This document shows, one piece after another, positions 8,279-29,988 of a stretch of 64,000 bases of DNA. The stretch covers positions 5,824,564-5,888,563 of the forward strand of contig NZ_KB912942.1 of assembly GCF_000383915.1 (NCBI RefSeq), written 5' to 3'. The DNA comes from Amycolatopsis benzoatilytica AK 16/65 (GTDB lineage Bacteria; Actinomycetota; Actinomycetes; Mycobacteriales; Pseudonocardiaceae). Position 1 is the first letter of the stretch. Every line of letters starts with the position of its first letter. The notes under the pieces were generated by a model, which was not told the origin of the DNA, did not search any database, and worked only from the letters and a program-made list of their open reading frames with translations. The translations under genes and the position numbers were made by a program.

Positions 8279-8286
8279 CGGAGGAC

Positions 8287-11743: not shown

Positions 11744-11747
11744 CGGC

Positions 11748-12953: not shown

Positions 12954-12973
12954 GCCGCCGATGCTGCCGACGC

Positions 12974-13014: not shown

Positions 13015-13066
13015 GAGGCGGAGGTGGCCGGCATTGCCAGCGCCAGCGACGAGACGGCGCCCCTGT

Positions 13067-13079
13067 TAGCCTCATCAGC
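13067..13079 (+). promoter_or_regulatory. Leaderless promoter of the 67-residue membrane protein gene
   Basis: TAGCCT at 13067-13072 is followed by 7 bases and the GTG at 13080, with no ribosome site. Confidence 0.55.
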
Positions 13080-13283: not shown

Positions 13284-13310
13284 AGCCGCGCCCAGGGAAG
13301 GGACTACCTC

Positions 13311-13658: not shown

Positions 13659-13662
13659 CCGC

Positions 13663-15219: not shown

Positions 15220-15344
15220 CGCGCACCCCTCTCCCCCGCGGTCGGCGGGGCCTGTCCGTCACTCCGGTCGATGCCGAAACTAGGCGCGGACAGGGCGGGT
15301 GGTGCGGTTCTTGTGCCCTACGAGCGCTGCGATGTCACCAAAGT

Positions 15345-15791: not shown

Positions 15792-15919
15792 GCGACCTCC
15801 TCGGCGAACCCTCCCAACACTATCAGGGCTCGAATGCCCGGCAGCTATCTTCCGTGCACGGCCCGACTTGACGGCGACCGGTGCGTGCTGCTTCGATTAC
15901 TGCTGTCGATCAGAGTTCG

Positions 15920-15931
15920 TATACTCATCAA
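15920..15931 (+). promoter_or_regulatory. Promoter of the MFS efflux operon
   Basis: TATACT at 15920-15925 is the best -10 box in this intergenic space. A GTG lies 6 bases further on at 15932, in frame with the transporter, so transcription may be leaderless with translation from there. Alternatively translation begins at ATG 15959, which has GGAAGGGG upstream. Confidence 0.6.
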
Positions 15932-15958
15932 GTGCCTGTAGCCTTGGAAGGGGTCTCC

Positions 15959-17497
15959 ATGGAGGTCACCGCCGCGCCGCGGCGCACCCGGCCCGGCCTC
16001 ACGCTCTTCGCGGTCTGCGCCGCGATCGTGCTGGTCCCGGTCACCGCCACCGGTGCGTCCGTCGCACTGCCCGACATCAGCGGCAGTCTCTCGACCAGCC
16101 TCGCATCCGCCCAGTGGGTGGTGAACGCGTTCTTTCTCGCCTTCGCCGCGTTCATGGCGATCACCGGGTCGCTCGCCGACCTGACCGGACGGCGCCGGAT
16201 GTTCGGCGGCGGCATCGCGCTCTTCTGCGCGGCGATGCTGGTCGCGACATTCGCCCCGTCGATCGGCCTGCTGGTCGGCGCGCGGGTGCTCGCGGGCGTC
16301 GGCGCCGCGTGCGTCACCACCGGTGGCAGTGCCCTCCTCGCGCACGCTTTCGAAGGTCCGGCCCGCACGCGCGCGTTCGGCCTGTTCGGGACGGCGATCG
16401 GGCTCGGGCTCGCGTTCGGGCCGTTGCTCGCCGGCCTGTTGGTCACGTCGCTGGGCTGGCGCGCGTTCTTCGGCGCGGCCGCGGTCGTGGTGCTGCCTCT
16501 CCTCGCGCTGGTGCCGCTGCTCACCGAGTCGAAGGACGCCCACCCGGCCGGCGCGGACTGGCCGGGTGCGTTCACGTTCACCGCGGGCCTGTCGCTGTTC
16601 GTGCTCGCGCTGATCGAGGGCCCGGAGCTGGGCTGGGGCAGCCCGCTCGTGCTCGCCGCGTTCGCCGCGTTCGCGGTGCTGCTGACGGTGTTCGTGGTGA
16701 TCGAACGCCGCAAGGACCACCCGATGATCGACGTTTCGCTCTTCACCCAGCCGCGGTTCCTCGCGATCTGCGCGATGCCGGTATTGCTGGCCTTCGGGTT
16801 CGTCGCGCTGCTCATCGCCCTGCCGCCGTACTTCATGGCGGTCGACGGGCTGAGCGCGAGCGGTGCCGGGCTGCTGCTCGTCCTGCTGACCGGGCCAACG
16901 CTCGTCGTGCCGATCGCGATCTCCTCGATCGCGCACCGCGTGCAGCAGCGCGTCCTGCTGGTCGTGACGATGCTGCTCGTCGCCGGGGGTGCCGCGTGGC
17001 TGACGGTGATCCACCCTGGAGCCTCGATCGGCGAGATCGCCGGACCGCTGCTGTGCATCGGCGCCGGCTTCGGCGTTTCGCTGGCGATCCTCGACGGCGC
17101 GGCGGTGTCGTCGGTCGAGCCGGCGCGAGCGGGGATGGCCGCGGGCGTGTTCAACACGATGCGTCTCGGCGGCGAGTCCGTCGCGATCGCCGTGCTCGGT
17201 TCGCTGCTCACCGCCGTCACGCAGGCCAAGCTCGGGGACACGCTCAGCGAGGAGAAGGCCGGACCGGTCACCGCGAAGCTGCTGCAAGGCGACATGACCG
17301 GCGCGGTCGACGCGGCTGGTCCGGGTGCCCGCGACGCGGCGACCGCAGCCTACACCGGTGCGCTGCACATCGGACTGTGGACAATCGCGGCGGTGTCGTT
17401 GCTCGGCGCGATCACGGTCGGTCTGCTCGCCCGCGAGCCGCGTACGACGGACCGCGAGCCCGACGAGGCCGCTGAGTTGACCGGCCAGACTGCGTGA
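15959..17497 (+). CDS. MFS multidrug efflux transporter, 14-helix EmrB/QacA type
   Basis: A 512-residue proton-coupled exporter with 14 predicted helices. Motif A is seen in GSLADLTGRRRMF, and motif C-like Gly-rich helices appear in FGTAIGLGLAFGPLLAG. A region typical of the DHA2 family follows, and the cytosolic tail is hydrophilic. The chosen ATG has a ribosome site (GGAAGG, about 8 bases). A leaderless GTG at 15932 would add 9 residues. It is divergent from marR and coupled by GTGA to the quinone reductase, so export and reductive detoxification are co-expressed. Confidence 0.88.
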   Translation: MEVTAAPRRTRPGLTLFAVCAAIVLVPVTATGASVALPDISGSLSTSLASAQWVVNAFFLAFAAFMAITGSLADLTGRRRMFGGGIALFCAAMLVATFAPSIGLLVGARVLAGVGAACVTTGGSALLAHAFEGPARTRAFGLFGTAIGLGLAFGPLLAGLLVTSLGWRAFFGAAAVVVLPLLALVPLLTESKDAHPAGADWPGAFTFTAGLSLFVLALIEGPELGWGSPLVLAAFAAFAVLLTVFVVIERRKDHPMIDVSLFTQPRFLAICAMPVLLAFGFVALLIALPPYFMAVDGLSASGAGLLLVLLTGPTLVVPIAISSIAHRVQQRVLLVVTMLLVAGGAAWLTVIHPGASIGEIAGPLLCIGAGFGVSLAILDGAAVSSVEPARAGMAAGVFNTMRLGGESVAIAVLGSLLTAVTQAKLGDTLSEEKAGPVTAKLLQGDMTGAVDAAGPGARDAATAAYTGALHIGLWTIAAVSLLGAITVGLLAREPRTTDREPDEAAELTGQTA

Positions 17498-18549
17498 GCA
17501 CGGCGACGATGCGGGCCGCGGTGTTCTCCCGTCGCCGCGGAAGGACGACAGCCCGCGTCACGGAACGCCCGGTACCGGTTCCCAGCCCCGGTGAGGTGCG
17601 GATCCGCGTACAGGCGTCCGGAGTGAACCCGATCGACGCGAAATCGCGCGGCCGCTCGGATGACAGCGACTACGTGCCGAACCACGACGGTGCCGGGATC
17701 GTCGACTTCGTTGGCGAGGGTGTCGATCCGGCGCGAGCCGGGCAGCGCGTGTGGCTGTGGGCGGCGAGCTGGCAGCGCACAAGCGGCACCGCGCAGGAGT
17801 ACGTCACGCTGCCGGCTGCGCTCGCGATTCCATTGCCGGACAACGTTTCCTTCGAAACCGGCGCGAGTGTCGGCATCCCAGCGCTGACCGCACATCGATG
17901 CCTCACCATCGGCGAAGGCGGTCCCGCGCAGCTCGCGCCCGACACGTTGACCGGTCGCACGGTGCTGGTCGCGGGCGGTGCCGGCGCGGTCGGCAACGCC
18001 GCGATCCAGCTGGCGCGCTGGGCCGGAGCTTCGGTCGTCACGACGGTCAGCACGCCAGAGAAAGCCGTACTGGCCAAGGCCGCCGGTGCGACGCGCGTGG
18101 TGAACTACCGCACCGAGGACGTCGCCGAGGCCGTGCGCGCGTTCGCGCCAGCGGGGGTAGACGTCGTCGTGGAGGTCGCGGTGGCACAGAACAGCGCGAT
18201 CGACGCGGCAGTGCTAGCGCCTGGCGGGACCGTGGCGTATTACGCGTGCGACGAGGGCGACACTCTCACCCTTGACGTACGCGCGATGATGATGCCGAAC
18301 CTCCGCTGGCAAGGCGTGTTCCTCTACGCCATTCCAGCGAACGCGGCAAAGAACGGCGTCGCGGCGGTTTCGAGAGCACTGGCCGACGGCGGTCTACGAG
18401 GGGGCGAAGAAGCCGGATTGCCGTGGCACCGGTTCCCGCTGGAAAACACCACAGCCGCACTGGACGCCGTACTCGACCCGACGGTAACCGGAAAATCCTT
18501 GATCGTTTTTCCTGATCACCGAAAGAGAAAAGGAGTGCACCACCCATGA
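17494..18549 (+). CDS. NADPH:quinone reductase-like (zeta-crystallin type) medium-chain dehydrogenase
   Basis: A 351-residue zinc-free MDR enzyme. The N-terminal GroES-like domain has VPSPGEVRIRVQASGVNPID and HDGAGIV, and the Rossmann site is VLVAGGAGAVGNAAIQLAR at about residue 150. There are no catalytic zinc ligands. It likely reduces quinones or reactive enones using NADPH. The GTG start overlaps the MFS stop and its end overlaps the SDR start, so it is in the middle of a three-gene operon. Confidence 0.87.
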   Translation: MSTATMRAAVFSRRRGRTTARVTERPVPVPSPGEVRIRVQASGVNPIDAKSRGRSDDSDYVPNHDGAGIVDFVGEGVDPARAGQRVWLWAASWQRTSGTAQEYVTLPAALAIPLPDNVSFETGASVGIPALTAHRCLTIGEGGPAQLAPDTLTGRTVLVAGGAGAVGNAAIQLARWAGASVVTTVSTPEKAVLAKAAGATRVVNYRTEDVAEAVRAFAPAGVDVVVEVAVAQNSAIDAAVLAPGGTVAYYACDEGDTLTLDVRAMMMPNLRWQGVFLYAIPANAAKNGVAAVSRALADGGLRGGEEAGLPWHRFPLENTTAALDAVLDPTVTGKSLIVFPDHRKRKGVHHP

Positions 18550-19388
18550 GCCCACGCGTCTGGTTGATCACCGGGGCGTCGTCCGGTTTCGGCAGAGCCC
18601 TCGCCGAGGCCGCCCTCGCCGCCGGCGACACCGTGGCCGCCGCCGTCCGCAAACCGGACTCGGTGGCCGACCTCGTCGCGGCGTACCCCGAGAGGGCCTG
18701 GCCGGTACAGCTCGACGTCACCGACGACGCGCGCGTCCCCGCCGCGGTCGCCGAGGTCCTCGACCGCCACGGCCGGATCGACGTGCTGGTCAACAACGCC
18801 GGCTTCGGCCTCGTCGGCGCCGCGGAGGAGACGACCGCCGCTGAACTGCGCGACCTCATGCACCTGCACCTGTTCGGCCCGGCCGAACTCACCCGCGCCG
18901 TGCTGCCCGGCATGCGCGAGCGCGGCACCGGCGCGATCGTGCAGCTCAGCAGCCAAGGCGGCCGGCTGTCGTTCGGCGGCATCTCCGCATACTCCGCCAC
19001 GAAGTTCGCACTGGAGGGCTGGTCGGAGGCACTGGCGGCGGAGGTCAAGCCGTTCGGCATCGACGTGCTGATCGTCGAGCCCGGCGCGTTCCGCACCGGC
19101 TTCAACAAGCCGGGCGTGCTGAAGTTCAGCGAGATCGGCGAGGTGTACCGCGAAGCGCTCGAACCGGTCCGCTCCGGCCTCACCGGCGCGGACGGCGGGC
19201 AACCGGGCGACCCGGTACGGGCGGCCGAGGCGATCCTGACCGCACTCGCCGCCGAGGAGACGCCGCTGCGACTGCCGCTGGGCAGCGACGCGGTGGAGAA
19301 CATCTCGGCCGCACTGGAGTCGGCCCGGACGGAACTGCTGAAGTGGGAGCAAGTTTCCCGCGGCGCGGATTTCCCCGCCGGGGAATAG
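18546..19388 (+). CDS. Short-chain dehydrogenase/reductase
   Basis: A 280-residue classical SDR. The cofactor motif TGASSGFG is at 9-16, NNAG at 83-86, and the catalytic Ser136, Tyr149 and Lys153 are in IVQLSSQGG and AYSATK. The C-terminal ~80 residues are longer than minimal SDRs, as in the oxidoreductase group that acts on larger or hydrophobic substrates. It is the last gene of the MFS-MDR-SDR operon and is followed by a strong terminator. The substrate is unknown. Confidence 0.88.
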   Translation: MSPRVWLITGASSGFGRALAEAALAAGDTVAAAVRKPDSVADLVAAYPERAWPVQLDVTDDARVPAAVAEVLDRHGRIDVLVNNAGFGLVGAAEETTAAELRDLMHLHLFGPAELTRAVLPGMRERGTGAIVQLSSQGGRLSFGGISAYSATKFALEGWSEALAAEVKPFGIDVLIVEPGAFRTGFNKPGVLKFSEIGEVYREALEPVRSGLTGADGGQPGDPVRAAEAILTALAAEETPLRLPLGSDAVENISAALESARTELLKWEQVSRGADFPAGE

Positions 19389-19396
19389 CGTTAGAT

Positions 19397-19435
19397 AAAA
19401 ATTGGCCGCGGCACCGGTGTCGCGGCCAATTTTTT
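19397..19435 (+). terminator. Intrinsic terminator of the efflux operon
   Basis: A 14-bp perfect stem, AAAAATTGGCCGCG (19397-19410) with its complement at 19421-19434, encloses a 10-base loop and ends in six T residues. This is a textbook rho-independent terminator, unusual in such a GC-rich genome. Because of its A-run it also works in the opposite direction. Confidence 0.9.
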
Positions 19436-19535
19436 ATCGGCACCGTTCTCTGCACCGAAAGTGACATACCGGCACCCTCGCCACCCCGATTAGCCTGAAA
19501 ACAGCAACAACCGATAAAAGAATTGGGGAGAAACA

Positions 19536-20360
19536 ATGGCGAAACCGGTCCGCATCGGCGTACAGCTCGTGCAGGGCGGCGAAGGTGTCACCTACCGGGC
19601 GTTGCGCGACAAGGTGTTCGAAATCGAGGAAGCGGGCACCGACGTCCTCTTCTGCTACGACCACTTCAATGTCCCGGTGGGCACGATCGACCCGGTCAAG
19701 GGCATCGCGGCCGAAGGCGAGCAGCCCGATGTCGAGAACTTCGAGGCGTGGACGGTGCTTTCGGCCTGGGCCGAGCAGACCGAGCGTCTGGAGCTGGGCG
19801 TGCTGGTGTCCGGCATGGGATACCGCAACCCGGACCTGCTGGCCGACATGGCCCGCACGGTCGACCACGTCTCCGGCGGCCGCCTGATCCTCGGCGTGGG
19901 CGCCGGCTGGTACGAGAAGGACTACACCACCTACGGGTTCGAGTTCGGCACGGTGGGTTCGCGGATGAAGGCATTCGCCGAGGGCCTGCAGCGCATCGAA
20001 CACCGGCTGGCGGTGCTCAACCCGGCACCGCAGCGAAAGATCCCGATCCTCATCGGTGGCGGCGGTGAGAAGAAGACGCTGCCGCTGGTGGCGCGGCACG
20101 CCGACATCTGGCACTTCTTCGACAACCTCGACACGCTGGCGCACAAGGACAAGATCCTGCGCGAGAACGCCGACGCGATCGGCCGCGACCACGCCGAGAT
20201 CGAACGATCACAGGAGTGGGCGGGTCTGGAGCTGGCCGACGCTTACGCCGACGCCGGCGTCACGCTGTTCACGCTCGTGCTGTGGTCACCGCACGACCTC
20301 ACTGAGCTGCGCAAGGCGCTGGCGTGGCGGGACGAGCGCAACAAGCGGCTTGCGGACTAA
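19536..20360 (+). CDS. LLM-class F420-dependent oxidoreductase
   Basis: A 274-residue luciferase-like monooxygenase-fold protein, probably using F420 rather than FMN. Visible features are the N-terminal IGVQLVQGG, the DVLFCYDHFN segment, the LGVLVSGMGYRNP strand, DHVSGGRLILGVGAGWY and IPILIGGGGEKKTL. The ATG has GGGGAG 6 bases upstream, and a TAGCCT -10 box lies about 45 bases further up. It stands alone after the terminator. The host makes F420 (fbiA and fbiB are in this window), which supports the cofactor assignment. The substrate is unknown. Confidence 0.85.
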   Translation: MAKPVRIGVQLVQGGEGVTYRALRDKVFEIEEAGTDVLFCYDHFNVPVGTIDPVKGIAAEGEQPDVENFEAWTVLSAWAEQTERLELGVLVSGMGYRNPDLLADMARTVDHVSGGRLILGVGAGWYEKDYTTYGFEFGTVGSRMKAFAEGLQRIEHRLAVLNPAPQRKIPILIGGGGEKKTLPLVARHADIWHFFDNLDTLAHKDKILRENADAIGRDHAEIERSQEWAGLELADAYADAGVTLFTLVLWSPHDLTELRKALAWRDERNKRLAD

Positions 20361-20446
20361 CGTTTCGCGGACAGTCCGGACGGCGGTGAAGGCACTGGAC
20401 CTGGCACCACCCTAGCTCGTCGAGCCGGACGATCCCCGGCAGGAAT

Positions 20447-20490
20447 CACAATGGACCGCGAAGCGTCGCGACACCTCGCGGTCCATTGTG
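20447..20490. terminator. Long inverted repeat between convergent genes
   Basis: CACAATGGACCGCGA (20447-20461) is perfectly complementary to 20476-20490, a 15-bp stem with a 14-base loop. Outer CCGGAC (20425-20430) and GTCCGG (20491-20496) can extend it. Lying between the F420 oxidoreductase end and the hadB-like end, it is a likely bidirectional terminator. Confidence 0.7.
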
Positions 20491-20535
20491 GTCCGGAAAA
20501 CCCGAAATCGAGCGAACGCCGGAAACTTGCCTTGA

Positions 20536-20946
20536 TCACCGCGCGAAGTGGACCTGAACCTTCGCCGCAGCAAGGACTTTCTCGCCGTCGCAGGTCGCCT
20601 CCAGCTCGACGGTCACTGTCCCGTCCTCAGCGCGCCCGGTCACCACTCCACCGACAGTCACCGTCACCGCGCCGCCGTCGGGCACCACCACCGGGCGGCG
20701 GAACCGAGCACGGCAGCCGGTGACGAATGCCGCGCCGCCCGCCCAGTCGGTCACCGCACGCACCGCGAGCCCGAACGTCAGCATCCCGTGCGCGATCACG
20801 CCCGGCAATCCGGCTTCCCGAGCCTCGCGGTCGCTCCAGTGGATCGGGTTCAGGTCCCCCGACGCACCCGCGTAGCGCACGAGATCGGCCCGCGTCAGCG
20901 GAAACGAGCGCTCCGGAAGACGCTCGCCCACAACGGCTTCAGCCAT
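20536..20946 (-). CDS. MaoC-like (3R)-hydroxyacyl dehydratase, HadB-like catalytic subunit
   Basis: A 136-residue hot-dog fold protein with the full hydratase-2 motif YAGASGDLNPIHWSD, giving catalytic Asp31 and His36. It should dehydrate a beta-hydroxyacyl-ACP or -CoA. The ATG at 20946 is chosen because the family starts just before VGERLP. It overlaps the HadA-like gene by 8 bases. As the last gene of the ACP-KS-CLF-AfsA operon it would provide the dehydration step, working as a heterodimer with its neighbour as in mycobacterial HadAB. Confidence 0.88.
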   Translation of the reverse strand: MAEAVVGERLPERSFPLTRADLVRYAGASGDLNPIHWSDREAREAGLPGVIAHGMLTFGLAVRAVTDWAGGAAFVTGCRARFRRPVVVPDGGAVTVTVGGVVTGRAEDGTVTVELEATCDGEKVLAAAKVQVHFAR

Positions 20947-21355
20947 CGCCGTGCACCGCCCGCGCCACCATCGTCGAGGTGGCCGTACCAACCGGCTCGC
21001 CTGTCTCGGTCGCGATGTCGGCCCGCACGGTCACCACGTCGTTGCCGCCGGATTGCGCCACGTCGAGAACCGTCACCACGACGGTAAGCCGGTCGCCCAC
21101 GCGAATCGGCCGCACCGCGGTGAACTCCTGGGAGCGGTGCACGACCCGGCCGTAGTCGAGCCCGAAAGCCGGGTCGAAATGCACCTGCCGCTCGGCGCGC
21201 ATGGCCAGCACGATCGGGAACGTCGGCGGCGCGAAGGCCGGGTCGCCGAGCGGCTCGCCCAGCGCCGCCGCGAACTCGCGGATCTTCTCGGCACCGACCT
21301 CGTACGGTTCGGTCGGCGGGTACGCGCGGCCCGCGTAGGTCCGGTCCAGCGCCAT
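20939..21355 (-). CDS. FAS1-like / MaoC N-domain dehydratase subunit, HadA-like
   Basis: A 138-residue hot-dog protein. It has the AYPPTEPYEVGAEKIREFA start and the FAPPTFPIVLA segment typical of the substrate-binding HadA subunit. It lacks the catalytic Asp-x-Asn-Pro-x-x-His motif, which its partner HadB supplies. The ATG lies one base after the HAD-phosphatase stop codon. Together with the HadB-like gene it forms a heterodimeric dehydratase of the kind used in FAS-II and in highly reducing type II PKS clusters. Confidence 0.87.
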   Translation of the reverse strand: MALDRTYAGRAYPPTEPYEVGAEKIREFAAALGEPLGDPAFAPPTFPIVLAMRAERQVHFDPAFGLDYGRVVHRSQEFTAVRPIRVGDRLTVVVTVLDVAQSGGNDVVTVRADIATETGEPVGTATSTMVARAVHGDG

Positions 21356-21356
21356 G

Positions 21357-22043
21357 TCAGCCCGGAATCCCGGCCAGCCGTGACCAGCCTTCCGTGGCCG
21401 CGATGGCGCCGAGGTCCGGGTTCTCCCCCACTACGACCGGATTACCGACCAGCTGCAGCAGCCCGAGGTCCGAGGTGTGGTCGCCGTAGGCGTGGCAGTC
21501 GGCCGCGTCGACGCCCGTGCCCGCGATCAGTTCGCGCGCCAGGTTCGCCTTCGCGTCGCCGATCATCGTGCGGGTGACCTCGCCGGTGTAGACCCCGTCG
21601 AGCACCGCCAGCTGCGTGCACATCGCGAGGTCGGCACCACAGTGCTCGCGCACCGGATCCAGGCACGCGGAGAACGATCCCGACACCAGCACGGTGGTCA
21701 TGCCCGCATCGGCGTGCCCGCGCAACGCGGCAAGAACGTCGGTATGGAAGAGTCCGCCTCGCGTGAGGCGGGCGGCGAACCATTGCCTGCCGATGCCAGC
21801 GACCTCGTCGGCCTTATACCCGGCGAAACGCCGGTAGAAAAGCCGGTTGCCCTCCGACCGGGGCATACCGGGCTTGAGCAGCGCCCGGGCCGCGTCGTGC
21901 AACTTCCGCTGCTCCTGCTCGGAATGGCCGACGGCGGCGAGGAAATAGTCGTAGAAGTCGAACATGCTTTTGATGGAGATCAGCGTCTCGTCGACGTCGA
22001 AGAACGCGATCGGACGGAACCGGGCGGGTGCGGTGCCGGGCAC
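21357..22043 (-). CDS. HAD-IB family phosphatase
   Basis: A 228-residue HAD hydrolase. The nucleophile motif FFDVDETLIS has Asp16 and Asp18, motif II Ser lies in TTVLVSGSFS, the motif III Lys is in IGDAKANLA and motif IV is YGDHTSDLGLL. It is related to the SerB/PhoC group, not the FkbH glyceryl-ACP group. The GTG start has AGGAGG. Lying directly after the AfsA-like gene, it may dephosphorylate a butenolide phosphate formed from a dihydroxyacetone-phosphate-type unit. That role is inferred from context. Confidence 0.87.
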   Translation of the reverse strand: MPGTAPARFRPIAFFDVDETLISIKSMFDFYDYFLAAVGHSEQEQRKLHDAARALLKPGMPRSEGNRLFYRRFAGYKADEVAGIGRQWFAARLTRGGLFHTDVLAALRGHADAGMTTVLVSGSFSACLDPVREHCGADLAMCTQLAVLDGVYTGEVTRTMIGDAKANLARELIAGTGVDAADCHAYGDHTSDLGLLQLVGNPVVVGENPDLGAIAATEGWSRLAGIPG

Positions 22044-22078
22044 GGGTGCCTCCTGATGATCAGCGGATCCGGGCAGGT

Positions 22079-23029
22079 TCAGCCCAGGACAAGGTCGAGG
22101 TCGGCGACTTCGGCACCGCTCTGGCGCGCGGTCATCCGGTACGAACGCGCTGCCGCGCCGGGCTCAGCGCTCAACTCGACCGCGGCGTCCAGCTCGGCGA
22201 ATTTGCGGAAGCGGCCGTCGAGCCGCACGACGCGGCGCGGCCACGGGCCGTCGGCGGCGAGCAGCAGCGCGCACTGCCGGGCGGCCTCGCTCAGCACCAT
22301 CGCGGGCACGTGGTCGTATGGATGGTCGTACATGCTGCGGTTGGCGAAGGTGCGCGGGCTGAGCGCCGCGGTGAGCCCGCGCGCCTCTTTCGCCACCGCG
22401 TCCAGGACGACGTTGGCCTGGTCGGCGCGGCCGACCTCGAAGGCGTTCGCGGGCGCTCCGACCGCCTCGGCGGGCAGCGTGAACGCGGTCGGTACACCAC
22501 TGCCGCGCTGCATGCGCCGCAACTGGTGGTACTGCTCAGTCGGGGTGCAGCCGACGTCCATGGTGAGACGACCCAGCGGGTGTCCGTCGAGCACGAGGTC
22601 CATGGCGAACGCCAGGAACCGCACGCTGCCCCCGCGTTCGCGCCGATCGGTGACCGTGCCGTCGACACGCAGCTCGCCCGGACGTTCGCCGCAGGTCAGT
22701 GCTGCCGGGTCGGACAGGTCGAGCGACCACGCGCTGACCATGAAGGTCGTATCGCGCGGCACCCCCTGCCCGACGTGCGCGACATACGTGACCGCTTGCC
22801 GACCGGCCTCCAGCACGTTCAACGGGTCGTACCAGCGGCTGTGGTCGGGGTGGTCGCGAAAGTAGGAGTGCGACTGCGGAAGCTGCGCCGCGCAGGCGAA
22901 ATCAGTGCCAGCGCGGGGTTCGCAGCCGGTGAGGAAGACCTCCGACAGCGACCAGCGGTGGACGAGCCCGCGCGGCACAGTCTGTTCGTAGGACAGAACT
23001 GGCGGCGCGGAGTCGAGCGTCGTTTCCAT
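22079..23029 (-). CDS. AfsA/ScbA-family gamma-butyrolactone (butenolide) synthase
   Basis: A 316-residue protein with two AfsA hot-dog repeats. Repeat 1 has VHRWSLSEVFLTG and AAQLPQSHSYFRDH, and DPLNVLEAGRQ ends its helix. Repeat 2 has NRSMYDHPYDHVPAM and VLSEAARQ. AfsA proteins join a beta-ketoacyl thioester to a dihydroxyacetone-phosphate-type acceptor, giving a butenolide phosphate. The acidic residue in SEVFLT (Glu30) aligns with the conserved family Glu. Uniquely here it sits inside an operon with its own ACP, KS, CLF and dehydratases, 18 bases after the CLF gene. No receptor gene or butenolide reductase is adjacent. Confidence 0.87.
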   Translation of the reverse strand: METTLDSAPPVLSYEQTVPRGLVHRWSLSEVFLTGCEPRAGTDFACAAQLPQSHSYFRDHPDHSRWYDPLNVLEAGRQAVTYVAHVGQGVPRDTTFMVSAWSLDLSDPAALTCGERPGELRVDGTVTDRRERGGSVRFLAFAMDLVLDGHPLGRLTMDVGCTPTEQYHQLRRMQRGSGVPTAFTLPAEAVGAPANAFEVGRADQANVVLDAVAKEARGLTAALSPRTFANRSMYDHPYDHVPAMVLSEAARQCALLLAADGPWPRRVVRLDGRFRKFAELDAAVELSAEPGAAARSYRMTARQSGAEVADLDLVLG

Positions 23030-23047
23030 GATTCCTCCGGTTTCGGC

Positions 23048-24196
23048 TCAGGGGTGGTGGGGATAGTCCGGGTGAGTCACGACCAGGCATCCGACCGAAC
23101 CGTCGAAGCCCGCGGAGGTCAGTACGGCCGCCCCGCCGCAGCCACCGGTCCGCCATGGGTATTGCCAGCCGGACAGCAGCACGGCGAGGTTCAGCGCCAC
23201 ACCAGCGCCGTGCGTTTCGCCGAGGACGTGGTCGGTGCGTTGCCTCGGCCCAGCACCGAAGACCGCGCGCAGTCCGCGTTCCTCTACCGCCGCCCAGCCG
23301 CGCCGGCCGCGCGCACCGGGCATCACGGCCGTGATGTCGCCGGGGGCGAGCCCGGCTTCGGCGAGCGCGTCGCGCACTGCCGCCGCGAGCCGCTCGGAGA
23401 CACCGCCAAGGCCGGCAGCCGGGTCGGAAAACCCCGCTGTGACGGCGGAAATCCGGCCCAGCACCCGGCCACCGGCGCGGGTGACGCCAGGAGCGTCGAG
23501 TGCGAACACGGCGCCGCCCTCGGCGAGTGCGGTGCCCGTGGCCAACGCATTGCCTTCGTGCCACGCCCACGCCACAGCCGGCGTCAGCTCCTCGACCGCG
23601 CCGGTGAAGAGCCGTTGCGCACGGCCCGCGACGAGCATCGTGCGGGCGTAGCGCAGCGCGTTCAGCCCGGCGAGCGCGCCGCCGGACACCGTCGCGTTGA
23701 GCCCGGTGAGCCCCTGCCGGATCGCAGACTTCCCGGCGGCCGAGTTCATCAGCGTGCCGGGGAAGTGCGACGGATTGACCAGGTACGGGCTGGCCTGCTC
23801 GAAGGTGTCGCGCAGGAAGTCCAGCACCCCGCTCGCGCTGCCCAGCGCGGTGCCCAGCACTATTCCGGTTTCCGCCGAGGGCAGTCCGTCGCCGGCGTCC
23901 TCCAGCGCGTCGGCGACGGCGGCCAGCGCGAGCTGATCCGTGGCGGTCATCCGGCTCAGGCCCTTCTTCCCGAGCAGCGCCGCCGGATCGAACCCGGCGA
24001 CCTCGCGCACCGGCAGAGGAGGCAGGCCAGGTTCGGCAGCGACGTCCGGCGCTGGCTCCGGTTCGGCCGCGAACCGTTCCGCGAGCGCGGCCAGCCCGCG
24101 CCCGGCGGCGCTCAGCACTCCGCAGCCGACGATATCGACGCTGTCTATTGTGGACATGTGAGAGGCGCCGGCGGACGGCGCGGTGGCGGTGGTCAT
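23048..24196 (-). CDS. Chain-length-factor-like ketosynthase (no nucleophile)
   Basis: A 382-residue KAS-fold protein. Aligning TVSGGALAGLNALRYA with the KS active-site region puts Ala174 where the catalytic Cys should be, and the HGTGT motif is absent, though GETHGAGVALNLA remains near the C-terminus. It should therefore act as the non-condensing partner (CLF) of the ketosynthase next to it. The start MTTATAPSAG overlaps the KS stop as ATGA, as usual for stoichiometric KS-CLF pairs. The N-terminus carries a short Ala/Pro-rich extension. Confidence 0.85.
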   Translation of the reverse strand: MTTATAPSAGASHMSTIDSVDIVGCGVLSAAGRGLAALAERFAAEPEPAPDVAAEPGLPPLPVREVAGFDPAALLGKKGLSRMTATDQLALAAVADALEDAGDGLPSAETGIVLGTALGSASGVLDFLRDTFEQASPYLVNPSHFPGTLMNSAAGKSAIRQGLTGLNATVSGGALAGLNALRYARTMLVAGRAQRLFTGAVEELTPAVAWAWHEGNALATGTALAEGGAVFALDAPGVTRAGGRVLGRISAVTAGFSDPAAGLGGVSERLAAAVRDALAEAGLAPGDITAVMPGARGRRGWAAVEERGLRAVFGAGPRQRTDHVLGETHGAGVALNLAVLLSGWQYPWRTGGCGGAAVLTSAGFDGSVGCLVVTHPDYPHHP

Positions 24197-25422
24197 CGGT
24201 CGGTCACCTTTCCGAACACAGTGATGGCGTTGTTGCCGCCGAAGGCGAACCCGTGGTTCTGCGCGATCCGCACGTCCGCCGGGCGGGCCACGCCGGGCAC
24301 CGCGTCGAGACCCTCGCCCAGTTCCGGGTCGAGGGTCCGCAACGTCGCGCTCGGCGGCAGGAACCCCTCGTGAATCGCGGCGCAGGAGAGCAGCGCGCCG
24401 AATCCGGACGCCGCGCCCATCGTGTGGCCGAGCATCGACTTGAGCGAGCTGATCGGCGGCAACCGGTCGCCGAAGACTTCGCGTACGGCGGCGACCTCCG
24501 TGCTGTCGTTGGCGCGGGTGCCGGTGCCGTGGGCGCAGATGTAGTCCACCTCCTCGGGTTTCACACCCGCGTCGCGGTGCGCCGCCTGAATGGCCCGGGC
24601 AATCGAATCCCGGTCGGGGTTGGTCAGGTGGACCGCGTCGCACGTCACGCCGTACCCGAGCACCTCGGCATAGATCCGCGCGCCGCGGGCCATCGCGGTC
24701 TCCAGCGGTTCCAGCAGCAACGCCACCCCGCCCTCGGCGGTGACGATCCCGTCGCGATCGGCGTCGAACGGCCGGGGCACGTCCGCCGCGAGCGCGCCCA
24801 ACCGGTGGAACCCAGCGTGGGTAGCACGGTTCGACGCGTCGGCACCGCCGCAGAGAGCGGCATCCGCGGCTCCGCTGCGCAGCAGGTCGAACGCGTAGCC
24901 GAGCGCGTAGTTCGCCGCCGCGCACGCCGTCGCGACGGTCAGCGTTTCTCCGCCGAGGCGCAGCTCCGCCGCGACCGCGGACGCGATCCGGCCTGCGTCC
25001 GCCTGCCCGGCCGCCGCCCCCGCGACGGCCGCCGGACCGTGCGCGGTCACGTTCTCGGCCAGGCGCTCCAGGACCTGCGATTCGCCGTTAGTGGTACCGA
25101 AAACGCTGACCGTCCGACCCGAGCGCAGCGCCGCCGGCTCGGCACCGGAGTCGCGCACGGCCTGGTGCGCCGCCGCCGCGGCGAACTGCCCCGACCGGCC
25201 CCAGCGAGCCGGGTCGAGGCGGCGCAGATGCTCGTTCGGGTCGAAGTCGGCGACCTCGCCCGCGAGTACGTGCTCGAACCCAGCCGAGTCGAACTGCCCG
25301 ATCGGCCCGACGCCGCTGGCCCCCGAACGCACGGCGGCGACGAGCGCCTCGGCGCCGATGCCGAGACTGCTCACCGCCCCGAGGCCGGTCACCACGACCC
25401 GCCGCGCGGCCCGTTCACGCAC
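24193..25422 (-). CDS. Beta-ketoacyl-ACP synthase (type II PKS/FAS ketosynthase alpha)
   Basis: A 409-residue KAS-II-fold condensing enzyme with an intact active site: Cys167 in VATACAAANY, His298 in CAHGTGT, Lys328 and His333 in SLKSMLGHTMGAASG. The N-terminal VVVTGLGAVSSLG and the C-terminal NHGFAFGGNNA are standard. It overlaps the ACP gene by 8 bases and the CLF gene by 4, making a tightly coupled ACP-KS-CLF block. With the dehydratases and ketoreductase nearby and no enoyl reductase, it would be expected to build an unsaturated chain. Confidence 0.92.
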   Translation of the reverse strand: MRERAARRVVVTGLGAVSSLGIGAEALVAAVRSGASGVGPIGQFDSAGFEHVLAGEVADFDPNEHLRRLDPARWGRSGQFAAAAAHQAVRDSGAEPAALRSGRTVSVFGTTNGESQVLERLAENVTAHGPAAVAGAAAGQADAGRIASAVAAELRLGGETLTVATACAAANYALGYAFDLLRSGAADAALCGGADASNRATHAGFHRLGALAADVPRPFDADRDGIVTAEGGVALLLEPLETAMARGARIYAEVLGYGVTCDAVHLTNPDRDSIARAIQAAHRDAGVKPEEVDYICAHGTGTRANDSTEVAAVREVFGDRLPPISSLKSMLGHTMGAASGFGALLSCAAIHEGFLPPSATLRTLDPELGEGLDAVPGVARPADVRIAQNHGFAFGGNNAITVFGKVTDR

Positions 25423-25687
25423 TGGCCGTCGCCTTCCCGGCGTGCCGGGCCACGAGCGCCCACGCGGTCGGCAGATCGTCCAGCTCGACCATCTCGTCCT
25501 GCGGAATCTTCACCCCGAGCGTCCGCTCGAAACGCGCGAACATCTCGATCACCAGCAGCGAGTCGGCCTCGTGGTCCTCGAGGAAGCTGTCGGCCTCGGA
25601 CAGCGCGCCCGGCTCGACTTCGAGGACCTCGGCGACGATCCGGCGGACGTCCTCACGCAGATCTTCGGAAATCACGACGTCACTCAT
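25415..25687 (-). CDS. Acyl carrier protein
   Basis: A 90-residue acidic ACP. The phosphopantetheine attachment Ser43 lies in HEADSLLVIEMF, followed by LGVKIPQDEMVELDDL. The ATG has AGAAAGGAAA upstream. It is the first gene of the seven-gene minus-strand operon and is coupled to the ketosynthase, so it is the dedicated carrier for this assembly line rather than the housekeeping AcpM. Confidence 0.92.
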   Translation of the reverse strand: MSDVVISEDLREDVRRIVAEVLEVEPGALSEADSFLEDHEADSLLVIEMFARFERTLGVKIPQDEMVELDDLPTAWALVARHAGKATASA

Positions 25688-25876
25688 TATTTTCCTTTCT
25701 CCGGGAATCGCGGTGAATCCGCACTCGACCATCACATCGCGTTCCCGGCACTGCGGCAAGCACTCCCAAAGTGACACGGCGGCACGTCTTTCCGACCACC
25801 TCCGATCCCCCCGCGCGAGCATCGGAACGGGCATGCTGGGAACCGTCCCGGCGAACCAGCGAGAAGGTGCGAGAAG
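25688..25876. promoter_or_regulatory. Divergent promoter region of the ACP operon and the KAS III-KR pair
   Basis: These 189 bases separate the ACP start (minus) from the KAS III start (plus) and must hold both promoters. I see no convincing gamma-butyrolactone receptor (ARE-type) palindrome. Weak -10 candidates exist, but none is clear enough to place. Confidence 0.5.
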
Positions 25877-26917
25877 ATGCGGACAACCGTCCCGGTGGGA
25901 ATCTGCGCGGCCGGCACTTGGCTTCCCGACAGCGTTTCGACCGCCTCGGACGCCGTGGCGGCCGGGCGGCTGCCTGCGCGGCAGGCCCGTGCCCTCGGCC
26001 ATTCCGCAGTGCCGTCGGCAGGTTCCGAAGCCCCGCCGGACATGGCGGTGCACGCGGCGCGCGCGGCCATGAAGGAAGCGAGCGTTTCGCCTGCGGACAT
26101 TTACGTTCTCGCGCATGCCTGGATGTATTACCAAGGGCACGACCTGTGGTCGCCGCCGCATTACATCGCCCGGGAAATCGACGCGACGAGCGCGTTTCCA
26201 GTCGGCATCCGCCAGGTGTGCAACGGCGGTGCCGCGGCACTGGAGCTGACCGCGGCGAAGCTCGTCGCGGAAGCCGGCGCCGCGCCGCGGATCGGACTCG
26301 TCACGACCGCCGACCGGTTCGCCGAACCGGGATTCGACCGCTGGGCAAGCGACTACGGCGTGGCCTACGGAGACGGTGCGACCGCGGTGGTCCTGCGCGC
26401 TCCCGCCGAGCCCGGCGACCTGTTGCTGCGCGCGATCGTCACGGTCGCCGCGCCCGAACTGGAAGAGATGCATCGCGGCGAGGATCCGTTCGGCACCGCC
26501 GCCCGCGCGCACCGAGACCGCATCGACATGCGGGCGACCAAACGCGCGTTCCTCCGCGACCACGGCACAGAGCCGTTCACCCGAGCCAACGAATCCCGCA
26601 TCCGCGAGGTCACCCGCCGCGCGCTCGCCGACGCCGGACTCGACGCCCGGGGCCGGACCTTGCGCTACGCGCTCCTGCCGCGATTCGGCCGCAAGACTCT
26701 CGACGAGTCGTGGCTGCCCGTCCTCGCCGAGGAGACCGGAGCCGAACCCCTCGACCTGGGAAAGGAAACCGGTCACCTCGGTGCCGGGGACGCCGCGGCC
26801 GGACTCGCCGGCCTGCGCCGCGCCGACCTGCTTTCCCCCGGCGACTCGGCGCTCGTTTTCAGCGCCGGCGCCGGCTTCACCTGGTCCTGCCTCGTCGTGC
26901 AGAACCCTTCGCGCTGA
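25877..26917 (+). CDS. KAS III-like acyltransferase/initiating ketosynthase with altered active site
   Basis: A 346-residue thiolase-fold protein of the FabH group. The nucleophile is Cys115 in RQVCNGGAAALEL. The FabH His motif HQAN is replaced by LPRFGR (about 267-272), and the Asn motif GNTSA is replaced by GHLGAGDAAAGL, where His300 takes the Asn place. A Cys-His arrangement of this kind occurs in CerJ/DpsC-type proteins that transfer acyl groups or load unusual starters, so priming or acyl transfer rather than ordinary FabH chemistry is possible. It leads a two-gene transcript with the ketoreductase. Confidence 0.82.
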   Translation: MRTTVPVGICAAGTWLPDSVSTASDAVAAGRLPARQARALGHSAVPSAGSEAPPDMAVHAARAAMKEASVSPADIYVLAHAWMYYQGHDLWSPPHYIAREIDATSAFPVGIRQVCNGGAAALELTAAKLVAEAGAAPRIGLVTTADRFAEPGFDRWASDYGVAYGDGATAVVLRAPAEPGDLLLRAIVTVAAPELEEMHRGEDPFGTAARAHRDRIDMRATKRAFLRDHGTEPFTRANESRIREVTRRALADAGLDARGRTLRYALLPRFGRKTLDESWLPVLAEETGAEPLDLGKETGHLGAGDAAAGLAGLRRADLLSPGDSALVFSAGAGFTWSCLVVQNPSR

Positions 26918-26971
26918 ACGGAAACCCGGAGTCAGCCGCACCGGCGACTCCCCGAAACGATGAGGAAACCC

Positions 26972-27676
26972 ATGTCCCGCTCCGTTTTCGTCACCGGTGC
27001 CACCCGCGGCATCGGACTCGCCGTGGCCCGCGCCCTCGCCGCCGACGGCGACCGCGTAGCGGCCGGCTACCGCACCGGCGAGCCGCCCGAGGGTTTTTTC
27101 GGCGTGCCGTGCGAGGTGACCGACCAGCGTTCGGTCGACGCGGCGTTCGAGACCGTCGCCGCCGAACAAGGCCCGGTCGAGGTGCTCGTCGCCAACGCTG
27201 GCATCACCCGGGACACCCTGCTGCTGCGCATGGACGACAAGACCTTCGACGAGGTTCTCGACACGAACCTGCGCGGGGTCTTCCGCACCGTCCGCGCCGC
27301 GGCGGCCGGCATGCTCGCCGCCCGCCGCGGCCGGATCGTGCTGCTGTCCTCGGCGCTCGGATTCCTCGGGTCGCCGGGACAGACCAACTACGCGGCCACG
27401 AAGACCGCGCTGCTCGGGTTCGCCCGCTCGCTCGCGTGGGAGCTGGGACCGCGGCAGATCACCGTGAACGTCGTGGCCCCCGGCATCATCGACACCGACA
27501 TGACCAAGGAACTCACCGACCGGCGGATGCGTGACACGATGAAGATGACGCCGCTCGGCCGACCGGGCACCGCGGCCGAGGTGGCGGCCGCGGTGCGGTT
27601 CCTCGCCAGCGAGGAGGCAGGTTACGTCACCGGCGCCGTGCTCCCGGTGGGCGGCGGCATCGGCATGGGCCTGTGA
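26972..27676 (+). CDS. FabG-like 3-oxoacyl-ACP reductase
   Basis: A 234-residue SDR. The NADPH motif TGATRGIG is at 8-15, NAG at 75-77, and the catalytic Ser126/127, Tyr140 and Lys144 are in VLLSSALG and NYAATK. It would reduce the beta-keto group after each extension by the KS-CLF. The ATG at 26972 is used, with GAGG 6 bases upstream. An ATG at 26960 would add four residues. Its 3' end overlaps the convergent response-regulator gene by 55 bases. Confidence 0.9.
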   Translation: MSRSVFVTGATRGIGLAVARALAADGDRVAAGYRTGEPPEGFFGVPCEVTDQRSVDAAFETVAAEQGPVEVLVANAGITRDTLLLRMDDKTFDEVLDTNLRGVFRTVRAAAAGMLAARRGRIVLLSSALGFLGSPGQTNYAATKTALLGFARSLAWELGPRQITVNVVAPGIIDTDMTKELTDRRMRDTMKMTPLGRPGTAAEVAAAVRFLASEEAGYVTGAVLPVGGGIGMGL

Positions 27677-28353
27677 CCGCCCGCCCTCGTCACGGCCGGC
27701 ATCAGCCGCCGGGGCGAGGGCACCGGCGGCGAGATCAGCCCGAACTCCACCGCCTTGTTCGCCGCCTCGACCCGTGACCGCGCGTGCAGCTTGTCGAAAA
27801 TACTGCGCATGTGGCGCTTCACGGTGCCCTCGACGATATTGAGCCGGCGTGCGATCTGGTAATTGCTCAGTCCGTGCGACGCCAGTTCGACGACCTCGGC
27901 CTCGCGCTGCGACAACGGCCCGGTGCCCACCGGATCCGGCGCGAGCAGCTTGCTCGCCGAGAGCGACACGGTGACCGGCCCCTCGGTGCACGCACTCCGC
28001 ACCGCAGCCGAAAGTGCCTGGTGTGTCACGGTTTTGTGCAAGAACGCACTGATCCCCAACGGCAACAGCGACTGCACGAGCGCGGACCCGTCGTGCATGG
28101 TAAGGATCAGCACCCGCACGCCGGGAACCGCTCGCTGCAGCGCCCGCACCGTCGCGGGCGGGTCCTCGTTGCCGGGCATTTCGATGTCGAGCAGCACCAC
28201 GTCCGGCCGGTGGTCGGCGGTCTGGCGCACGGCCTCGCCGGCGCTGCCCGCGACAGCGACGACGTCGAGGTCGTCCTCCGCGGTGAGCAGTTCGGCCAGC
28301 GCGGTGCGGAGCAGCGTGTGGTCGTCGGCCAGCAGGATGCGGATCGGCTGCAT
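27622..28353 (-). CDS. NarL/LuxR-family response regulator
   Basis: A 243-residue regulator. The receiver domain has Asp10-Asp11, phosphoacceptor Asp56 (VVLLDIEMPG) and the Lys in FLHKTVT. The LuxR-type HTH spans LSQREAEVVELASHGLSNYQIA and VEGTVKRHMRSIFDKL. The last ~35 residues are a Pro/Met-rich tail encoded partly antisense to the ketoreductase gene end. It is coupled by ATGA to the kinase gene. It is the likely cluster-situated regulator. Confidence 0.9.
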   Translation of the reverse strand: MQPIRILLADDHTLLRTALAELLTAEDDLDVVAVAGSAGEAVRQTADHRPDVVLLDIEMPGNEDPPATVRALQRAVPGVRVLILTMHDGSALVQSLLPLGISAFLHKTVTHQALSAAVRSACTEGPVTVSLSASKLLAPDPVGTGPLSQREAEVVELASHGLSNYQIARRLNIVEGTVKRHMRSIFDKLHARSRVEAANKAVEFGLISPPVPSPRRLMPAVTRAGGHRPMPMPPPTGSTAPVT

Positions 28354-29537
28354 CAGGACGCCTCCTTCGTGCCGACCGGGCGGCCTGCTGGCGCCGGCGC
28401 TCGCGGGACCACCGCGACCGAGCGGCCGCCCGCTTGCGGCAACGGCACCCACAGCCGGATCCGGGTCCCCTTGCCGAGTCTCGTGGACAGCGAGAGCTCG
28501 CCGCCGAGCTGTTCGGTCCGCTCGCGCATGATCGACAGCCCGCTGCCGCCTGACCCGCGCGAGGCAGGCGACTCGGCGGCCCAGCGGCGCTCGTCGAACA
28601 CGAACCCGCGCCCGTCGTCGAACGCCTCCAGGTCCACGCGCCCCGGGCTGATCCGCACGCGCACCGACACCGAATCCGGAGCGGCGTGCCCGAACGCGTT
28701 GCGCAGGAACTCCCGCACGATCAGGAACAGTTCATCGCGGTGGTAGTCCGGCAGCCACGCCTCGTCGCCGTGCACCGCGATCCGGACCGGCACGTCGCGG
28801 AAGTTGAGGTCGGCGGCGCACCCGGCGAGCGCCTCGGCGAGGCTCGTCAGCGGCGCTTCCGCGCGCAGCCCGGAGACCACCCTTCGGGTGAACGCGGTGG
28901 CCTCGTCCAGCGACTCCTGCACCTGGTCGAGATGGCGCAGCACGGCCGGATCGTCGACGACCGCCTTGGCACGGAACAATTCCAGATGCCGGAACCCGAG
29001 CACCAGGCTGTTGCCGAGCCGGTCGTGCAGATCGCGCGCGAGCTGCACCCGGCCGTCGGAATTGACCTGCTCGATCTGCTGCAGCAGGAACGCGTCGTAG
29101 CTCATCGCCGCGGTCTGGGCGTGCAGCGAGCCGAGCCTGCCGATCACCCGTGCCGCGCGTGTCACGACCAGGACCGCCTCGCCAGGCGGCAGTTCGGCGG
29201 CGAACCCGGCGACCGCGTCGAGAGCGTGCCGCTGCAGGATCTCGATGGCGGCCAGGGAATCAGTGAGCCGCGCCTTGCAGCACGCCCACAGCCCGCCGAC
29301 GACGGACGCGGAAAGCAGGTCCTCCTCGAGATTCCGGTCGGTCACCGCGTCGAGAGGGCGGTCGAGCACCCGCGCGATGCCCTCGAGAATGAGTGTCGCG
29401 TGAGTACGCGACTCGGCCCACAGTTCCGGCGTGGTGCCGAGCGGATTGCGCACCCGCACCAAAGTGCGCCGGTAGCGCTCCACCACTTCCGGTGTCACCG
29501 CGACCAGCCGGTCGCCGGCACAGCCGAGATCTGACAT
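28353..29537 (-). CDS. Soluble sensor histidine kinase (HisKA_3/NarX-type)
   Basis: A 394-residue kinase with no signal peptide or membrane helix. An N-terminal ~150-residue helical sensor region precedes the dimerisation helix with phosphoacceptor His171 in LARDLHDRLGNSL. The ATPase domain has EFLRNAFGHA (N box), DDGRGF (G1) and SGGSGLSIMRER (G2). The ATG at 29537 has GGGGGA upstream. Pairing with the NarL regulator is clear. A cytosolic sensor suggests it detects an internal metabolite, possibly a pathway product. That is inference. Confidence 0.9.
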   Translation of the reverse strand: MSDLGCAGDRLVAVTPEVVERYRRTLVRVRNPLGTTPELWAESRTHATLILEGIARVLDRPLDAVTDRNLEEDLLSASVVGGLWACCKARLTDSLAAIEILQRHALDAVAGFAAELPPGEAVLVVTRAARVIGRLGSLHAQTAAMSYDAFLLQQIEQVNSDGRVQLARDLHDRLGNSLVLGFRHLELFRAKAVVDDPAVLRHLDQVQESLDEATAFTRRVVSGLRAEAPLTSLAEALAGCAADLNFRDVPVRIAVHGDEAWLPDYHRDELFLIVREFLRNAFGHAAPDSVSVRVRISPGRVDLEAFDDGRGFVFDERRWAAESPASRGSGGSGLSIMRERTEQLGGELSLSTRLGKGTRIRLWVPLPQAGGRSVAVVPRAPAPAGRPVGTKEAS

Positions 29538-29988
29538 GCGAAGTCCCCCATCGTATGTCTGCAGAACAGGCAACGCCGCCGGGACGTGGTCAGCCGGCAG
29601 CGGCCTGCGGTGGACCGGCGACTCCCCCGAGACCGGACGGCGTGCGCCCGGAGGCGGCAACAGTTCCGCCGCGCCGGTTTGAAAAGGCTACGTTGCCCGT
29701 GCCGGAAATTGTATCGAAATTCGCGGCGCGGGTCGTAGCATTTGAGTCCGCTTCATCCGGTTTGGCCGTCCGTGACCTGTACCACATACCTCTTTGGAAA
29801 CATGGTCCGCGCTCGTCGTTCAATCGCGGCCGGTTTGCACCCGCTGAGCGGGATTTTGGAAGACAGCGACCGGACGTCGGGCGCGGCTGGTGCGATTGCC
29901 CGGCCCGGCAGCCGATATCCGCCGATCGCGCCAGGCCAATTCCGCCGTCCGCGTCGGACCGGCTCGCCGGCCGCCTCGCACCCCCGCC
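29538..29988. other. 451-base intergenic region, no gene seen
   Basis: It lies between the kinase start and the AlkA-like gene end. Short open frames on both strands lack ribosome sites and family resemblance. Bases 29690-29830 are noticeably richer in A/T and T-runs than the surroundings, so they may hold the promoter of the two-component operon or a small RNA. I cannot define either. Confidence 0.4.

Follow-up and report, generated by a model that had tools for sequence, protein, structure and literature searches.

A predicted type II polyketide synthase cluster with a free-standing AfsA-type protein and a HAD phosphatase in Amycolatopsis benzoatilytica AK 16/65

The genome of Amycolatopsis benzoatilytica AK 16/65 contains an AfsA-type gene inside an operon for a type II polyketide synthase (PKS), in a stretch of 64,000 nucleotides that we analysed as a whole and call the window (contig NZ_KB912942.1, positions 5,824,564 to 5,888,563). 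The operon probably encodes a highly reducing type II PKS that is off-loaded by the free-standing AfsA protein, with a HAD enzyme dephosphorylating the product. The genes are present with intact motifs in a single operon, and the linkage of the AfsA, HAD and ketosynthase (KS) genes is conserved in other genomes.

Gene content of the operon

Seven minus-strand genes form a coupled operon in the order acyl carrier protein (ACP), KS, chain-length factor (CLF), AfsA, HAD, HadA and HadB, with spacings of -8, -4, +18, +35, +1 and -8 bp. Genes for a KASIII-like protein and a FabG-like ketoreductase (KR) diverge from it. Gene families were assigned by Pfam and NCBIfam profile searches.

20536..20946, minus strand: HadB-like dehydratase subunit with a hydratase-2 motif, YAGASGDLNPIH (PF01575)
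20939..21355, minus strand: HadA-like dehydratase subunit (PF13452, HadA models)
21357..22043, minus strand: HAD-IB phosphatase, proposed to dephosphorylate a butenolide phosphate (TIGR01490 above cut-off; motifs)
22079..23029, minus strand: AfsA-type protein with two hotdog domains, proposed chain-release enzyme (phosphorylated butenolide synthase) (PF03756 twice, residues, tree)
23048..24196, minus strand: CLF without the nucleophile (best PDB match 6kxd_B; Gly at the Cys position)
24193..25422, minus strand: KS of the highly reducing type II PKS kind (C167/H298/H333; best PDB match 6kxd_A; tree)
25415..25687, minus strand: ACP (PF00550; DSL serine)
25877..26917, plus strand: KASIII-like protein of the DpsC/ChlB3/CerJ kind, proposed starter-loading enzyme (best PDB match 4xs7)
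26960..27676, plus strand: FabG-like KR (PF13561/PF00106; YAATK motif)

A first-pass annotation, made from the letters of the window alone, had named these genes, and all are present at the places and on the strands it gave. Its account of one coupled operon (spacings -8 to +35 bp), an intact KS, a CLF without a nucleophile and two genes diverging from the operon (25877-26917 and 26960-27676) is borne out. The HadB start is more likely the ATG at 20946 than the TTG at 20991, and the CLF starts at 24196. A promoter and terminator scan of 20300-26100 found none, no tRNA genes were found in the window, and no nonribosomal peptide synthetase or amide ligase was seen among the scanned genes.

The KS has the active-site residues C167, H298 and H333, and the CLF has a Gly (NATVSGG) at the position of the KS Cys. 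The best PDB matches are 6kxd_A for the KS (E 1e-114) and 6kxd_B for the CLF; we take 6kxd to be Iga11-Iga12, the ishigamide KS-CLF. In a quick tree of 93 KSs, 85 (the window KS, its relatives and 6kxd_A) form one clade with SH-aLRT 100, and both FabF-type KSs of the same genome lie outside it. We use only the clade itself from this tree, which carries a long-branch warning (both FabF rows and 6kxd_A among the rows concerned) and does not place the FabF rows on one side of a branch. The FabF of this genome is 39% identical to the window KS. Judged by its sequence, the KS is not a housekeeping enzyme. The first-pass annotation had let its idea depend on this placement, and the window KS indeed falls with 6kxd_A, apart from the two FabF-type KSs.

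All four HAD phosphatase motifs are intact (DVDET, VSGS, GDAKA and YGDHTSD). The KASIII-like protein contains the motifs VCNGG and TGHLGAGD and matches 4xs7 best (207 bits), followed by ChlB3 and CerJ; 4xs7 is a protein of the daunorubicin-doxorubicin PKS, presumably DpsC. We infer a starter-loading role for the window protein because its best match is a DpsC-type protein, followed by ChlB3 and CerJ. HadA and HadB score far under the NCBIfam equivalog cut-offs, and their best matches are still HadA and HadB models. The names of the KS, CLF, ACP, HAD and HadB (hydratase-2) motifs follow general usage.

The AfsA protein scores 122 bits against PF03756 (cut-off 24) over two stretches. Its gene is free-standing, not fused as a terminal PKS domain, and is the single AfsA gene of the genome.

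Linkage of AfsA, HAD and ketosynthase genes

We scanned genomes with the KS alignment and kept the best 80 of 426 named loci, to which the locus counts refer. Of the 80, 44 have an AfsA gene at most 10 kb from the KS; among the 58 loci whose flanks both reach 9.5 kb or more, 32 do. The 44 become 42 without L099, where only a ScbR-paired AfsA was found, and L105, a partial match that the list at 70% coverage does not contain. AfsA is nearby in 12 of 13 rows of the window's KS clade (the exception is L084 of S. mashuensis), and a second large AfsA-bearing KS group (SH-aLRT 80) has it in 33 of 37. The presence of AfsA changes 7 times on the KS tree, compared with about 30 times on shuffles. KS and AfsA distances are correlated over the 44 loci (Spearman 0.745, a value reached by 0 of 2000 permutations), and part of this may reflect common species descent. 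The arrangement ACP-KS-CLF-AfsA-HAD with a divergent KASIII gene is found again in other genera and is therefore not due to chance.

The HAD phosphatase gene follows AfsA closely. We counted a phosphatase gene directly downstream of AfsA, within 400 bp and on the same strand, querying two HAD types, so that others would be missed. Such a gene is present after 43 of 46 AfsA genes associated with a highly reducing KS (HR-KS) and after 0 of 20 AfsA genes paired with a ScbR-type receptor gene. Eight of the 43 are of the window's type (the window included) and 35 of the second type. Two of the three exceptions are cut by contig ends, and L070 has its HAD gene elsewhere in the locus. The first-pass annotation had proposed to look for this co-occurrence, and both the 12 of 13 rows with AfsA in the window's KS clade and the 43 of 46 with HAD next to it agree with what it expected. 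Both types are HAD proteins by Pfam, with no significant mutual similarity (E 0.17). Because two dissimilar types serve the same place, the dephosphorylation step looks as if it were required and refilled.

Counted by locus, HAD is present in 40 of the 44 KS loci with AfsA versus 1 of the 36 without. Of the four AfsA loci lacking it, L057 and L113 run into contig ends and L099 and L105 are the doubtful ones; the single HAD locus without AfsA is L060, on a contig that starts 3.4 kb before the KS. HAD is also directly downstream of 1 of 10 AfsA genes that have other KSs only. Where the stretch shows no recognisable KS, the figure is 8 of 10, and short loci of the close lineage account for 3 of the 8. 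After ScbR-paired AfsA genes we find epimerase/3beta-HSD-type reductases in all five cases (of 20) tested by Pfam.

Several loci vary on this theme. L135, a MmfLHP-like locus with a ScbR-paired AfsA, has its HAD gene one gene further on, and L052 has a further HAD-family gene after AfsA. Five loci (L039, L040, L043, L052 and L153) combine AfsA with a FabF-like KS, 36-39% identical to the query KSs, and appear to be a further cluster type; L039, L040 and L043 also have a KASIII gene and a HAD 44-49% identical to that of the window, some kilobases off. Two Streptomyces plasmids, L136 (7934-10790) and L137 (7773-10737), carry a compact trio of AfsA, HAD-IB and KASIII genes, with no KS-CLF seen in 18.6 kb.

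AfsA lineages and the receptor question

In a careful tree of 86 AfsA proteins, the 20 ScbR-adjacent proteins lie on one side of a branch (support 99/81), and all 46 with an HR-KS nearby fall in one branch of 51 rows (98/88). The HR-KS label changes 3 times on this tree, compared with 28.7 times on shuffles. The window AfsA is sister to that of A. anabasis (96/94), inside a clade of 13 rows (100/100). The tree has a midpoint root for drawing only, leaves out 11 duplicates or near-copies (L033, L035, L041, L044, L045, L047, L134, L146, L147, L151 and L159, the last by eye) and includes row L046_14603 trimmed to 320 residues. HR-KS rows come mainly from the KS search and most ScbR rows were fetched for a nearby ScbR, so row numbers are no measure of frequency; the separation of the lineages does not follow from this choice.

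Fourteen charged or polar residues are among those common to all AfsA lineages (H54, D68, E74, R77, Q78, H85, R171, D235, H236, D239, H240, E248, R251 and Q252), and all are kept in the window protein; its sequence is that of an intact AfsA from another lineage. L50, Y56, N206, A221 and N230 distinguish the PKS lineages from ScbR-paired AfsA. The positions of L50 and A221 are Trp in ScbR-paired AfsA, and we suggest the putative idea that these two residues widen the acyl pocket. The same differences could mean that AfsA joins the PKS chain to a partner other than dihydroxyacetone phosphate (DHAP), such as glycerol phosphate or a different sugar phosphate; the product would then have another head group, which HAD would still dephosphorylate. 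The proposed use of a pentulose by MmyD, an AvrD-like butenolide synthase, in methylenomycin biosynthesis (PMC12593393) points the same way. However, the core residues that the protein has in common with ScbR-paired AfsA are unchanged, and the window HAD is 47% identical to the phosphatase of a plasmid locus that appears to be MmfLHP-like, a kind of furan system for which DHAP has been proposed (PMC7037778). A non-DHAP partner is thus unlikely.

The window AfsA scores 197.3 against NF041195 (ScbA/BarX), narrowly below the cut-off of 200. Five other PKS-lineage proteins (four from HR-KS loci and that of L133) score 152.9-201.4, and two of them pass (200.9 and 201.4). Three ScbR-paired AfsA proteins score 331.5-334.9 and a MmfL-like AfsA scores 280.9. 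Some PKS-lineage proteins are named gamma-butyrolactone synthase in public records.

We consider it somewhat more probable than its opposite that the AfsA family has, apart from the lineage that makes hormones, a large one devoted to chain release from type II PKSs across actinobacteria, nearly always with one of two dissimilar HAD types. Its products would be so far unrecognised polyenyl or alkenyl butenolides or furans, and the window would belong to it, with a dehydratase pair of its own. Seven families contribute the HR-KS-associated AfsA rows (Streptomycetaceae, Pseudonocardiaceae, Nocardiopsidaceae, Micromonosporaceae, Thermomonosporaceae, Streptosporangiaceae and Nocardiaceae). With 8000 candidates scored, a protein database yields at least 62 AfsA proteins at E 1e-20 or better and, besides the window's own, at least 50 at 51% identity or more, the doubtful P0051 included. 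P0051 (546 amino acids) looked like an AfsA-HAD fusion and was rejected by eye, since its middle segment reads like a different frame of the AfsA end, as expected of a frameshift joining neighbours. The close lineage is present in 6 of 391 sampled genomes of the genus of genome G391, and 3 of the 6 were already in the comparison set. Two Streptomyces plasmid records contain fuller versions of the cluster with HAD, FabG, ACCase subunits and a SnoaL-like protein, and a MaoC dehydratase pair is annotated in one.

AfsA/ScbA proteins are the classical signal synthases, so the window AfsA could make a gamma-butyrolactone-type signal from primary fatty-acid chains and switch the cluster on, with no part in assembly. 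ScbR genes do occur in some type II PKS loci: L065 and L099 have a receptor-paired AfsA. The genome of A. benzoatilytica, however, has no ScbR-type receptor over the cut-off (best 74.7 versus 150 bits), and 31 of 80 genomes of the genus, its own among the 80, have one. The 133 weaker receptor matches in the genome are generic TetR-like, and 13 of 14 control genomes match too. Among same-genus AfsA genes, 22 of 29 are within 3 kb of ScbR (neighbours over or close to the cut-off, with one, G088:C57, below it at 135.6), and the window AfsA is among the 7 that are not. It is outside the ScbR-paired branch and stands between CLF and HAD, with a phosphatase next to it, not an epimerase/3beta-HSD-type reductase. 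With one AfsA gene and no ScbR-type receptor over the cut-off in the genome, a classical autoregulator is improbable, and the autoregulator product that the first-pass annotation had considered finds no support in either the receptor search or the AfsA tree.

Other observations weigh against chain release by AfsA and HAD in a dedicated PKS. Taken as a whole, this type of KS can do without AfsA: 36 of the 80 KS loci have none within 10 kb, and in the window's own KS clade L084 is without AfsA and HAD in the stretch. L065 with its PKS-lineage AfsA also holds a ScbR gene, and the near-copy plasmid loci L133 and L134, again with a PKS-lineage AfsA, have one about 9 kb away. The A. anabasis locus is without a close KR. 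For the ten closest named relatives, the loci fetched showed neither HadA nor HadB. A further point concerns saturation of the chain: the KR and HadAB are encoded, and the quinone oxidoreductase at 17494-18549 is a possible enoyl reductase (ER). That there is no ER is not certain, because the quinone oxidoreductase superfamily includes enoyl reductases.

Two of these loci have further content. L084 (12472-13635) contains a close KS-CLF-KASIII-KR set and an acyltransferase-domain gene (PF00698) downstream of the CLF. L065, from Streptomyces toyocaensis, carries a PKS-lineage AfsA with HAD (5169-6179) and, about 12 kb away, a ScbR-paired AfsA beside ScbR (16086-17030).

The first-pass annotation had placed HadA and HadB in the conserved set. 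We rejected this: nine relatives were tested, and in all of them the best HadB copy (47-52%) is on a different contig or well away from the cluster. The first-pass reading stands in part. Its central proposal, a dedicated highly reducing PKS that feeds AfsA and then HAD, has strong support from genome comparison through the KS clade and the AfsA-HAD linkage, and the dehydratase pair falls outside the conserved set. The lack of HadAB in the closest loci would also suit a different role for the double-hotdog protein, as PKS dehydratase or thioesterase, with HAD acting on something unrelated; hotdog proteins include enzymes of both kinds. But the window encodes HadAB as well as AfsA, many more distant loci have both, and a dehydratase would not explain why HAD comes after AfsA 43 times in 46 and hardly ever occurs without it. 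We regard this role as very improbable and retain chain release by AfsA as the probable function.

Cluster extent, proposed pathway and comparison with known systems

The cluster reaches past the coordinates first given for it, 20536 to 27676, to about 13.66-29.66 kb (13663 to 29660). Its further genes and the island that holds it are as follows.

8266..29988, no strand: genomic island holding the cluster, inserted in a conserved part of the chromosome with fbiB on one side and a manB-like gene on the other
13663..15219, minus strand: FAD-dependent monooxygenase (PF01494), probable tailoring enzyme (Pfam; homologues in 8 of 14 compared loci)
15345..15791, minus strand: MarR-type regulator (Pfam; homologues in 4 of 14 compared loci)
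15881..17497, plus strand: predicted MFS exporter, DHA2-like (Pfam/NCBIfam; matches in 9 of 14 compared loci)
17494..18549, plus strand: zinc-type quinone oxidoreductase, cluster membership uncertain (Pfam; absent from L055, 57% in L091 only)
18546..19388, plus strand: SDR oxidoreductase, possible tailoring (Pfam; 65% homologue in the A. anabasis locus L055)
19536..20360, plus strand: F420-dependent LLM oxidoreductase, possible tailoring (TIGR03856 above cut-off; 84% homologue in L055)
27622..28353, minus strand: LuxR-type response regulator, start inferred (Pfam; 61-72% in 7 close named loci)
28353..29660, minus strand: sensor histidine kinase (Pfam; 52% in L055, 38-49% in L054, L056, L057 and L058)

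Homologues of the monooxygenase occur in L055 (73%), L053, L054, L056, L057, L058, L067 and L091, and those of the MarR regulator in L055 (86%), L057, L067 and L091. Matches to the MFS exporter are 34-76% identical. Of the 14 compared loci, L055 alone has a counterpart of the LLM enzyme. L054-L058, L067 and L091 share the LuxR-type regulator, and the KR has 79-86% matches in 9 close named loci, not in A. anabasis.

Homology by blastn with five same-genus loci that do not have the cluster at this position ends at 8202-8266 and restarts at 29988-29991. The gap between fbiB and the manB-like gene (names we assume from their Pfam domains) is 23,649 bp here; in 19 genomes of the genus it is 1.8-6.8 kb. 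The search covered 30 genomes, that of A. benzoatilytica included, and 10 of them had no manB-like match at the limit used. From these break points and the widened gap we conclude that the cluster occupies an island some 21.7 kb long. In A. anabasis the fbiB-manB stretch is short and the cluster is located elsewhere. The island also carries a second two-component pair at 8785-11273 and, at 11748-13547, a gene for a membrane acyltransferase-3; the 14 compared loci show no counterpart at E 1e-10. The cluster of L058 contains another acyltransferase (PF01757).

We propose a pathway whose chemical steps, C3 partner, chain length and final structure are all predictions from these genes. The DpsC-like KASIII would load a starter, and the KS-CLF, with the ACP, KR and HadAB dehydratase, would extend the chain. 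The chain would be unsaturated, because there is no clear ER. AfsA would then take the last, unreduced beta-ketoacyl-ACP and condense it with DHAP to a phosphorylated acyl-butenolide, which HAD would then dephosphorylate. Decoration of the product may fall to the FAD monooxygenase, perhaps along with the SDR and LLM enzymes, and its export to the MFS protein.

If this is right, a widespread group of type II PKS clusters in seven actinobacterial families has predictable release chemistry and a predictable head group, and dozens of orphan clusters could be tested directly as sources of butenolide-type compounds. Such an AfsA, free-standing and able to off-load a type II PKS, would also be a handy tool for making butenolides from chosen chains. 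An annotation habit is corrected as well: these proteins score around the gamma-butyrolactone synthase cut-off, but their genomic setting is one of chain release, not signalling.

The main text of a catalogue of type II PKS clusters does not use the term AfsA (PMC10132072). Among the papers listed by our searches of the open-access literature, none showed a type II PKS with AfsA release; subscription journals lie outside these searches, which are no proof of absence. The parts are known; what these searches did not show is the parts combined into a free-standing AfsA/HAD release module that serves an iterative type II PKS and recurs across actinobacterial families. The cluster resembles the highly reducing type II PKS of the ishigamide kind (6kxd) in its KS-CLF type, stand-alone ACP, KR and dehydratase; to our knowledge no AfsA/HAD release module is described for that kind. 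With the gamma-butyrolactone systems of the A-factor and ScbA-ScbR type it shares an AfsA-family enzyme with the same conserved core residues. It differs from them in having no receptor over the cut-off, an AfsA of another branch, a HAD phosphatase instead of a reductase, and a dedicated PKS.

The methylenomycin furan (MmfLHP) and Ahfa systems likewise combine an AfsA homologue with a HAD phosphatase (PMC7037778, PMC12593393). A MmfP-like phosphatase is proposed for dephosphorylation in furan biosynthesis (PMC7037778); for methylenomycin the proposed synthase is AvrD-like and has a KASIII and an ACP of its own (PMC12593393). The window differs in its dedicated type II PKS, in having no ScbR-type regulator over the cut-off and in having no MmfH-like oxidoreductase beside AfsA (no acyl-CoA-dehydrogenase-like gene is present among the Pfam-scanned island genes).

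A close parallel to the proposed chemistry is in the trans-AT PKSs for gladiofungin and gladiostatin, where AfsA-family (PBS) domains release modular PKS chains as beta-ketoacyl groups with DHAP and phosphatase genes are in the cluster (PMC7756420, PMC7756379). An AfsA-like PKS domain condenses 3-ketothioesters with DHAP in vitro (PMC7756379), and gladiofungin is lost when most of the AfsA domain is deleted (PMC7756420). These are known exceptions to the premise of the first-pass annotation that AfsA proteins normally take chains from primary metabolism. In those systems the domain is fused to a modular PKS in Burkholderia; the A. benzoatilytica protein stands alone and would act for an actinobacterial KS-CLF of the iterative type II kind.

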